Below are positions 55,998-59,924 of a DNA stretch of 64,000 nucleotides, one piece after another. The position numbers were made by a program, and so were the translations under genes. The DNA comes from Aphanothece sacrum FPU1 (lineage in GTDB: Bacteria; Cyanobacteriota; Cyanobacteriia; Cyanobacteriales; Microcystaceae), in contig NZ_BDQK01000006.1 of assembly GCF_003864295.1 (NCBI RefSeq), positions 62,001 through 126,000 of the forward strand. Reading direction: 5' to 3'. How positions within the stretch are numbered: position 1 is the stretch's first letter; each line of letters starts with the position of its first letter. The notes under the pieces are model-generated. The model made no database searches, was not told the DNA's origin, and saw only the letters and a program-made list of their open reading frames with translations.

Positions 55998-56564
55998 TTA
56001 ATAACTTTGAGGTTGAAAATTTTCAGGAATATCGAGTTCAAATACTTCATCATGAATCCGAGCCACATAAAATCCTTCTTGCAGAGTTTTTTGGCGTAAT
56101 TCGGGGGACATATCAACGGCGGCTAAAACACCATAGAGTTGTTTATCTTTATGTTCAGGAAAAAAGGTACGAAAACGTTGTAAAATACTTTTTAATTGAG
56201 TAATAGAATCTTCCCTAGCATGACTTTTAACCTCGACAATATAGGCAGTATTCAGATTACCATTGGTATAGGCCAGGACATCAATTTCCATGTGTTGCCC
56301 TCCTTTACTGACTCGCACACTGGGACTGACTACTTCCATGCCAAACCGTTGTCTGAGAATCTTTTCCATTGAGGGGAGGGCCAGACCTTCAGTAAAGCTA
56401 CCAAATTTTGCACCGAGTCCCCCAATTTGTTTCCCTAATTCTTTGAGTTGTTTGCCAGTCTCCTTCAGTTGTAGGTCAGTCTCTTTTTGAGCAGCAGTTA
56501 ATTCCGATTGCTTGGTGGTTAATTCGGCGAGGAGTTGCCATACGTCGTCTGCGGTAGTTGCCAT
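55998..56564 (-). CDS. Coiled-coil PD-(D/E)XK protein, paralogue B
   Basis: This 188-residue copy has head MATTADDVWQLLAELTTKQS, a short coiled coil and a nuclease-like domain (MEIDVLAYTNGNL, then IVEVKSHARE). The C-terminal 150 or so residues look identical to those of copies C and D. Together with its flanks it forms one unit of a recent tandem duplication. Confidence 0.75.
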   Translation of the reverse strand: MATTADDVWQLLAELTTKQSELTAAQKETDLQLKETGKQLKELGKQIGGLGAKFGSFTEGLALPSMEKILRQRFGMEVVSPSVRVSKGGQHMEIDVLAYTNGNLNTAYIVEVKSHAREDSITQLKSILQRFRTFFPEHKDKQLYGVLAAVDMSPELRQKTLQEGFYVARIHDEVFELDIPENFQPQSY

Positions 56565-56740
56565 AGATTATTTATGCCTTATGATGGTTTTCTCTATTTT
56601 AATGAATTATCGGCATTTTCACACATATTTAAAAAAATAATTAACACTAATATCTCCAATTTATTGCCATTCTTAAACCTAACCTACCGCTATCTTTTTT
56701 TCTAGAAAGTGATTGCTTTTCCCTGATAGATCAAGAAAAA

Positions 56741-57307
56741 TTAATAACTTTGAGGTTGAAAATTTTCAGGAATATCGAGTTCAAATACTTCATCATGAAT
56801 CCGAGCCACATAAAATCCTTCTTGCAGAGTTTTTTGGCGTAATTCGGGGGACATATCAACGGCGGCTAAAACACCATAGAGTTGTTTATCTTTATGTTCA
56901 GGAAAAAAGGTACGAAAACGTTGTAAAATACTTTTTAATTGAGTAATAGAATCTTCCCTAGCATGACTTTTAACCTCGACAATATAAGCAGTATTCAGAT
57001 TACCATTGGTATAGGCCAGGACATCAATTTCCATGTGTTGCCCTCCTTTACTGACTCGCACACTGGGACTGACTACTTCCATGCCAAACCGTTGTCTGAG
57101 AATCTTTTCCATTGAGGGGAGGGCCAGACCTTCAGTAAAGCTACCAAATTTTGCACCGAGTCCCCCAATTTGTTTCCCTAATTCTTTGAGTTGGCGATCA
57201 GTCTTCTTCTGTTGTTGAGCATTTTCCTTCAGTTGTCGGTCAGTCTCTTTTTGAGCAGCTGTTAATTCCGCGAGGAGTTGCCATACGTCGTCTGCGGTGG
57301 TTGCCAT
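56741..57307 (-). CDS. Coiled-coil PD-(D/E)XK protein, paralogue C
   Basis: This 188-residue copy is identical to B in its nuclease domain but has a different coiled-coil head (missing TTKQSEL, with an extra KENAQQQKKTDRQLKE block). The start lies 743 bp from that of B. Coding and spacer DNA both appear duplicated. Confidence 0.75.
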   Translation of the reverse strand: MATTADDVWQLLAELTAAQKETDRQLKENAQQQKKTDRQLKELGKQIGGLGAKFGSFTEGLALPSMEKILRQRFGMEVVSPSVRVSKGGQHMEIDVLAYTNGNLNTAYIVEVKSHAREDSITQLKSILQRFRTFFPEHKDKQLYGVLAAVDMSPELRQKTLQEGFYVARIHDEVFELDIPENFQPQSY

Positions 57308-57412
57308 AGATTATTTATTACCTTATGATGGTTTTCTCTATTTTAATGGATTATCTGCCCTTGCCGAAGGCACTGCGGAGAAGATTCCTATTCCCTGATA
57401 GATCAAGAAAAA

Positions 57413-58000
57413 TTAATAACTTTGAGGTTGAAAATTTTCAGGAATATCGAGTTCAAATACTTCATCATGAATCCGAGCCACATAAAATCCTTCTTGCAGA
57501 GTTTTTTGGCGTAATTCGGGGGACATATCAACGGCGGCTAAAACACCATAGAGTTGTTTATCTTTATGTTCAGGAAAAAAGGTACGAAAACGTTGTAAAA
57601 TACTTTTTAATTGAGTAATAGAATCTTCCCTAGCATGACTTTTAACCTCGACAATATAAGCAGTATTCAGATTACCATTGGTATAGGCCAGGACATCAAT
57701 TTCCATGTGTTGCCCTCCTTTACTGACTCGCACACTGGGACTGACTACTTCCATGCCAAACCGTTGTCTGAGAATCTTTTCCATTGAGGGGAGGGCCAGA
57801 CCTTCAGTAAAGCTACCAAATTTTGCACCAAGTCCCCCAATTTGTTTCCCTAATTCTTTGAGTTGGCGATCGGTCTTCTTCTGTTGTTGAGCATTTTCCT
57901 TCAGTTGTAGGTCAGTCTCTTTTTGAGCAGCTGTTAATTCGGATTGCTTGATGGTTAATTCCGCGAGGAGTTGCCATACGTCGTCTGCGGTGGTTGCCAT
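57413..58000 (-). CDS. Coiled-coil PD-(D/E)XK protein, paralogue D
   Basis: This 195-residue copy is the longest of the B/C/D group. Its head contains both the IKQSEL segment and the KENAQQQKKTDRQLKE block, so it may be closest to the ancestral form. It is divergent from ribE. Confidence 0.75.
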   Translation of the reverse strand: MATTADDVWQLLAELTIKQSELTAAQKETDLQLKENAQQQKKTDRQLKELGKQIGGLGAKFGSFTEGLALPSMEKILRQRFGMEVVSPSVRVSKGGQHMEIDVLAYTNGNLNTAYIVEVKSHAREDSITQLKSILQRFRTFFPEHKDKQLYGVLAAVDMSPELRQKTLQEGFYVARIHDEVFELDIPENFQPQSY

Positions 58001-58856: not shown

Positions 58857-59254
58857 ACTATCAATTATGAAAATTTGTTAAGTTTTTTAATATATCTCTC
58901 CTAAATTTTACTTAAGTTCCTAAACTTTGGTGGCGAATGTTACATTAAGAAGTCATACTGGTTATTGTGGATCTAATCAAATTTTTTGCTCAATCCTGGA
59001 GACAATTTGGAGTGTGAGGATATTTAACTTAAGATTGCCTCTTTAGTAAAGAGATAACTGCCCATTTAAGGGTCAAATTTTCTATTTCTGTGCTTGACTA
59101 CTGACTGAGTCATAGTTACAGCGCAAGGCAAAAGGCAAAAAGAACTGAAAAGCCTATCAAATAAAGGTTTTAGCGATCTTCATCTTGATCTAATTTGTAA
59201 ACATACCAGCGCTGCGCGCTATATCTCAAAACCAAATTATCGAGGAATATAGTG
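58857..59254. other. Intergenic region after ribE
   Basis: About 400 bases with no convincing gene. A short open stretch near 58974-59016 (GTG, then DLIKFFAQSWRQFGV and a stop) is too short to call. AGGCAAAAGGCAAAAAG near 59124 is a simple repeat like that in the atpD-atpA gap. Confidence 0.4.
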
Positions 59255-59485
59255 ATGACTAAGCCAACTATTAAAAATCAACTATCAATCTCACACCCAC
59301 CAATAACATCTTGCCAAAAAAGTAGAAATTCACGTCAAGTACCATTTTATGAAGCCTTAATTACCGTTGTGTTATTAGTGACTGCCTTATGGATGCAAGC
59401 ATTTCCTAATTGGCAATTTCCTAGTAACCTCAAAAGTCAGTCCCTGACTGCTTCCCCTATCAATAACCCATGGCAACCTCGTTAA
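59255..59485 (+). CDS. Small single-pass membrane protein (76 aa)
   Basis: This small protein has a polar N terminus, one hydrophobic helix (VPFYEALITVVLLVTALWMQ, about 30-49) and a short polar tail. The ATG at 59255 has GAGG 9 nt upstream; GTG at 59252 is the alternative. The family is not recognised. Confidence 0.55.
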   Translation: MTKPTIKNQLSISHPPITSCQKSRNSRQVPFYEALITVVLLVTALWMQAFPNWQFPSNLKSQSLTASPINNPWQPR

Positions 59486-59540: not shown

Positions 59541-59570
59541 TTGACACTTATGTTAAAAGTTATGTAGAAT
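59541..59570 (+). promoter_or_regulatory. Promoter of the riboswitch transcript
   Basis: TTGACA (59541-59546), an 18-nt spacer and TAGAAT (59565-59570) form a near-consensus sigma-70 promoter. Transcription would start near 59577, just before the conserved leader. Confidence 0.75.
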
Positions 59571-59592
59571 AGAGAGATGTCCACTAAAATGA

Positions 59593-59688
59593 CCGTTCAT
59601 CTCCCCTCAGTCCCAACACCAAGGCTGTTAGAGACGGAAGTAGGTGATTAAAACCGAAGGAACGCCATCCCACCTTAGATCATGAGGT
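59593..59688 (+). promoter_or_regulatory. Glutamine riboswitch (glnA/Downstream-peptide type)
   Basis: The leader carries conserved elements of the glutamine aptamer: CCGTTCATC at the 5' side, AGACGGAAGTAGG in the middle and ACCGAAGGAACGCC at the 3' side. CGTTC (59594-59598) pairs with GAACG (59660-59664). After it, ACCTTA (59672-59677) pairs with TGAGGT (59683-59688, one G-U) and hides the GAGG ribosome site of the small gene at 59700. That would be a simple translational expression platform. Glutamine sensing is known for this motif class in cyanobacteria; binding here is inferred. Confidence 0.8.
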
Positions 59689-59699
59689 AGCAACAACAA

Positions 59700-59924
59700 A
59701 TGCTTGTGATTTCCTTAATTACCTTGGCCATTGCTTCTCTGTCTGCTTTTGTTAGCCTAAATATGCAAGAAGAAGTATTTAGAGTAGCCATCAAATGTAT
59801 TGCCTTGCTTTCTCTATTCATAACTCTTCTGTTAGCTCCTTGGGCGATTAAGCTGACTCTTGCTACTATTCTTGTGATGAGTGATAGAATTATTCAACCC
59901 ATACTCCAGAAACCCGGAAGTTGA
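59700..59924 (+). CDS. Riboswitch-controlled small membrane protein (74 aa)
   Basis: This 74-residue protein has two hydrophobic helices (about 2-22 and 30-50) and a short C-terminal segment (SDRIIQPILQKPGS). It is not IF17/GifB, the known glutamine-riboswitch target of Synechocystis. Its control by a glutamine-type leader suggests a role in nitrogen status, perhaps acting on a membrane transporter or enzyme. That is inference; no domain is recognised. Confidence 0.7.
   Translation: MLVISLITLAIASLSAFVSLNMQEEVFRVAIKCIALLSLFITLLLAPWAIKLTLATILVMSDRIIQPILQKPGS

Follow-up and report, generated by a model that had tools for sequence, protein, structure and literature searches.

A type 1 glutamine riboswitch aptamer precedes a conserved, undescribed small membrane protein in Aphanothece sacrum and related cyanobacteria

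The stretch of DNA analysed here (the window) spans 64,000 nucleotides of Aphanothece sacrum FPU1 and carries on its forward strand a short leader followed by a single small gene. First comes a predicted sigma-70-type promoter of sequence TTGACA-18-TAGAAT (59541..59570) that matches the consensus at 11 of 12 positions, followed by a type 1 glutamine riboswitch aptamer (RF01739; 59592..59668) and a predicted hairpin, ACCTTA/TGAGGT, that would mask the ribosome site as an expression platform (about 59676..59694). The open reading frame proposed as riboswitch target (59700..59924) starts 32 nt downstream of the aptamer and encodes a membrane protein of 74 residues. Directly 5' of the promoter lies another ORF of 77 codons with one hydrophobic stretch (59252-59485, forward strand), for which a 43% identical relative was found at the same place in one other genome (G129; L171 4450-4626) and none at the other loci searched. 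On the reverse strand, positions 55998-58000 hold three near-identical tandem copies of an ORF of 188-195 aa (MATTADDVWQLLAELT...) that differ mainly in a repeated N-terminal stretch.

Going by their number, promoter-like sites are about as frequent as expected by chance (2 found versus 1.4 expected), but a TTGAC[AC] motif is present 40-60 nt 5' of the aptamer in 33 of 36 leaders of relatives. Control by NtcA was considered and rejected: the NtcA-type motif GTA-N8-TAC was found in 5 of the 36 upstream stretches of relatives and not in the window. The aptamer scores 48.4 bits (E 1.5e-7), well above the gathering score of 35, matches the RF01739 model over its full length (positions 1-53 of 53) with all conserved blocks, and is the sole gathering-level Rfam match within the window. 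A first-pass annotation made from the sequence had described a near-consensus promoter, the conserved blocks of a glnA/Downstream-peptide aptamer and the following ORF, and it had the coordinates and blocks right. The Rfam covariance scan that it had called for gave a glnA score above threshold and no match to the Downstream-peptide model (type 2, RF01704) at gathering score in the window, so that its aptamer class stands as the glnA type and not as the Downstream-peptide type. Its statement that this aptamer class controls gifB in Synechocystis agrees with the literature, according to which gifB is activated by glutamine in this organism (PMC6316151). We consider it nearly certain that aptamer and gene are both real, and membership in the type 1 class points to glutamine as the ligand.

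The 74-residue protein contains two clearly hydrophobic segments and a third, less hydrophobic one. An AlphaFold2 model of modest quality (mean pLDDT 71, pTM 0.36) places helices at residues 2-21, 25-45 and 48-69, so that the two helices recognized by the first-pass annotation are probably joined by a third. Relatives are encoded in at least 79 of 148 genomes of the order, and a profile search that covered 292 genomes from the whole phylum places the strong members of the family in this order only. Among 25 aligned members, the motif NTxEE[IV]xKVA follows the first helix and APW follows the second, while the tail is variable; the former motif is a short charged stretch between the first two helices and the best conserved part of the protein. 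Across 17 pairs of relatives, dN/dS ranges from 0.05 to 0.46 and mostly from 0.1 to 0.3, which indicates that the family is under purifying selection and, together with the shared motifs, that the ORF is a real gene. The cross-genome comparison that had been suggested for the peptide thus revealed a conserved family.

Searches of the 25 members against Pfam, NCBIfam and PHROGs gave scattered weak matches and no consistent or above-cut-off family, and the protein has no sequence kin of known function. This bears out the earlier view of the target as a different, undescribed small membrane protein; the supplementary tables of the original papers on gifB and aptamer binding may list some of the genes as hypothetical proteins. 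The best of the weak matches were to DUF7657 in five members (E 0.00029) and to the model of the L-valine exporter subunit YgaH in two of the 25 members in one scan; the latter was absent when eleven members were rescanned singly, and we treat it as a compositional match. Neither the peptide nor its relatives match DUF4278 (PF14105), and the IF7 pattern AR-x-L-M ... NRQQSM is absent from these membrane proteins. A phage origin was considered and rejected, given no match among phage records and two weak plasmid matches in Chondrocystis.

The association of aptamer and membrane protein recurs far beyond the window, which strengthens the proposed pairing. An aptamer lies just 5' of a relative of the protein in at least 35 of 148 genomes of the order, representing 11 families, with the conserved start of the relatives directly after the aptamer; these counts are lower bounds, as stretched aptamers are missed by Rfam. 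Crossing whole-genome lists of aptamers and proteins gave at least 26 genomes with an aptamer 26-61 nt 5' of the protein, to which direct locus reading added two (G129, G126), P2-stretched aptamers three (G088, G071, G028) and leader reading four (G014, G003, G052 and G105, the last with only the 3' half of the aptamer found within 600 nt). A profile search of genome contigs with a narrower family alignment yielded 15 named loci, and carriers of the pairing include the filamentous cyanobacterium ESFC-1, Limnothrix, Laspinema, Geitlerinema, Spirulina, Baaleninema, Trichodesmium and Okeania. No operon partner is conserved across families, and synteny was found only inside single families. Since the pairing is kept without a conserved neighborhood, the aptamer belongs with this gene rather than with an operon, and the gene stands by itself.

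Some aptamers of the order are considerably enlarged. At three loci (L017, L018 and L022, upstream of about position 1500 in sense orientation), the P2 loop carries some 200-300 extra nt, and these aptamers escape Rfam although both halves are conserved. In Trichodesmium and Okeania (L187, L188, L189), an insertion of more than 100 nt occupies the P3 loop between GACGGAAGTAGGG and CCGAAGGAACG, and the aptamers lie 35-240 nt 5' of the same membrane protein.

Several relatives of the protein are encoded without an aptamer, including its nearest family-mates in five genomes (G007, G036, G059, G078, G245) as well as others (G029, G053, G106), so that glutamine control is not essential to the function of the protein. 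Aptamer-less members are scattered among aptamer carriers, with seven label changes on a family tree that is built from 73 columns only and poorly resolved, and one old gain of the aptamer followed by several losses would be the simplest reading. Four loci of one genus (L192 to L195; G255, G290, G365, G258) include three single-contig genomes of 2.8-3.1 Mb that keep an intact aptamer and the membrane protein, and one 4.7 Mb congener (G255) with altered core letters, GACAGAAACTAGG for GACGGAAGTAGG. The small genomes may, at a guess, belong to diatom endosymbionts. In two genomes (L005 1047-1125 and L006 1050-1128), a Cyano-1 RNA (RF01701) lies about 380-450 nt 5' of aptamer-less relatives.

The stem over the ribosome site that the first-pass annotation had noticed is found again as the predicted hairpin of the window leader, in which the GAGG of the ribosome site is paired with a predicted probability of 0.93-0.96. 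In a shuffle test on this leader alone, the signal is weak (z 0.6), and the stem therefore rests mainly on comparison between leaders. Membrane-protein leaders lack the CGCCTC/GAGGCG letters of IF leaders and carry instead a post-aptamer stretch that is complementary either to the ribosome site, as in the window and in L172 (CACCTCA/TGAGGTG), or to the start-codon region, as GCATC/GATGC in many leaders, CATATT/AATATG in L157 and L160, and CATTG/CAATG in L161. In another leader (L011), CACAAC/GTTGTG could pair at a site directly 5' of the start. A shuffle test of accessibility across leaders gave no signal at the ribosome site and a weak one at the start codon, for which reason we put weight on a swap test: the mean duplex energy of the stretch with its own start region is -7.0 versus -6.2 with those of other leaders (p 0.012, n = 27 leaders; p 0.011, n = 15 with about one leader per family; p 0.055, n = 23 with about one per genus). 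The evidence of co-variation is thus modest. An intrinsic terminator was rejected as platform because no terminator-like site was found. The arrangement suggests a translational ON switch like that of gifB, in which ligand binding would release the start site, and the direction of switching is taken from gifB. We regard glutamine-activated translation of the 74-residue protein as quite likely.

In the order, the same switch serves mainly IF17-like and IF7-like genes. When assigned by simple sequence patterns, the first ORFs behind 150 listed aptamers fall into 81 DUF4278/IF17-like genes, 30 IF7-like genes (29 by pattern and one by eye), 26 genes for this membrane protein and 13 others, which makes the membrane protein the third most frequent target among the aptamers listed. 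The size of the first class agrees with a review, according to which most aptamers of the cyanobacterial genomes at hand are found 5' of DUF4278 genes (PMC6316151). Limnospira indica PCC 8005 has a second glutamine riboswitch (RNA199; PMC8400943). Small protein families behind glutamine aptamers also include one with the motif QWQxYKxLELxPD in four genomes (L088, L107, L117, L086), one with FDFxLWAxxVK in four genomes (L069, L115, L131, L132) and one with MRLFKSF...VNPQTAAILMSYGF in two genomes (L150, L156). Downstream of IF7-like genes that lie behind glutamine aptamers, there is often another small ORF, which carries the motif SLEHRLQVARxKGDEKLIR (L034, L035, L040, L042, L043, L056, L062).

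In the genome of A. sacrum itself, no DUF4278 gene was found, and an IF7-like gene on contig C1 has a leader that shows no aptamer. A second glutamine aptamer (contig C13, 69395-69453, 52.6 bits; L001 1501-1640) is directly followed by the apparent tail of the small ORF that elsewhere comes after IF7-like genes, as if the IF7-like gene in between had been deleted. In this genome, the gene of the 74-residue protein is therefore the sole one found intact behind a glutamine aptamer.

Among known systems, the locus most resembles the gifB (IF17) riboswitch of Synechocystis sp. PCC 6803 (RF01739; PMC6316151), with which it shares the aptamer family, a single aptamer in a short 5' leader, a small protein as target and, as predicted here, masking of the start site directly after the aptamer. 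It differs in that the target is a membrane protein and not a DUF4278 protein, and while IF leaders pair CGCCUC with GAGGCG as a direct mask, membrane-protein leaders pair other sequences. The type 2 riboswitch (RF01704) has a related aptamer and precedes short ORFs in marine picocyanobacteria (PMC2864571), but these ORFs were reported as DUF4278-like (PMC6316151) and not as membrane proteins. The gifA/IF7-like genes behind RF01739 are likewise small, stand-alone targets of this switch within the order, yet IF7 is soluble and arginine-rich and has a different leader platform. In its way of working, the protein may be compared with sP36 of Methanosarcina mazei, a small protein that helps to shut off ammonium transport on nitrogen upshift (PMC10714827); no kinship is implied, and sP36 is archaeal, 61 aa long and devoid of a transmembrane helix.

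The best explanation of the whole, from promoter over glutamine ON switch to a brake at the membrane, is one that we put forward tentatively and at somewhat short of an even chance. Transcription from the promoter at 59541-59570 would yield a monocistronic mRNA with a leader that folds into the type 1 aptamer. With glutamine scarce, the post-aptamer stretch would pair with the ribosome site (in the window) or with the start codon (in many relatives) and keep translation off; with glutamine plentiful, the bound aptamer would free the start region, and the 74-residue protein would be made. The protein would then act as a nitrogen-replete brake in the membrane. Its target would most likely be a nitrogen transporter, for instance the ammonium permease, or else a membrane-associated step of assimilation, and by inhibiting it the protein would form the counterpart, in the membrane, to IF17 and IF7, the soluble inhibitors of glutamine synthetase. 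This reading as a brake is drawn from the fact that the two larger target classes are, or resemble, glutamine synthetase inhibitors; that the protein regulates nitrogen import or assimilation at the membrane follows from such association and is, on its own, possible at a similar level of confidence.

Other readings keep the glutamine switch and give the protein a different task. It could itself be an effector, such as a small channel or exporter subunit that releases surplus glutamine or another amino acid, which would suit a protein that is hydrophobic throughout, has two to three helices and, by analogy with gifB, is made at high glutamine. The YgaH matches mentioned above would fit as well, but they did not recur in the members rescanned singly, no member reaches a curated transporter family, and no transporter gene is conserved beside the gene, so that we consider such a role unlikely. 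Unlikely to a similar degree is a general role in the membrane or in photosynthesis that nitrogen status would do no more than adjust: the relatives without aptamer show the protein to be useful without glutamine control, but the losses of the aptamer look scattered and recent on a tree of limited resolution, the pairing spans 11 families, and inhibitors of nitrogen assimilation make up both of the other large target classes.

We give a little less credence still to a role as membrane anchor, in which, at high glutamine, the protein would bring a soluble regulator or enzyme of nitrogen metabolism (PII, glutamine synthetase or an IF) to the membrane. While the co-regulated genes encode soluble inhibitors and the charged NTxEE[IV]xKVA stretch is where conservation peaks, the protein has no exposed domain beyond this stretch, and its tail is variable. 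That the ORF is no gene at all, with a riboswitch that once served something else or is itself a remnant, could be suspected from the small size of the ORF and from the gene remnant behind the other aptamer of the genome; the comparison between relatives argues strongly against it, with the dN/dS values of all 17 pairs, the shared motifs and a start that is kept close behind the aptamer, and leaves this reading highly improbable.

The glutamine switch thus appears to have, in the 74-residue membrane protein, a third common target beside the two known glutamine synthetase inhibitors. New here is its pairing with the aptamer, conserved across at least eleven cyanobacterial families. An unannotated membrane-protein family accounts for about one sixth of the aptamer targets listed in the order, and glutamine riboswitches that would otherwise be orphans may find their target in it. 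The leaders form a natural set in which the aptamer is constant and the expression platform has diverged. It is a more doubtful proposal that the order has a membrane arm of glutamine feedback, in which a small protein made only at high glutamine would shut a nitrogen transporter and complement the soluble inhibitors, and which in A. sacrum would be the sole arm still under a glutamine riboswitch. If true, glutamine sensing would reach the membrane directly through a dedicated protein.
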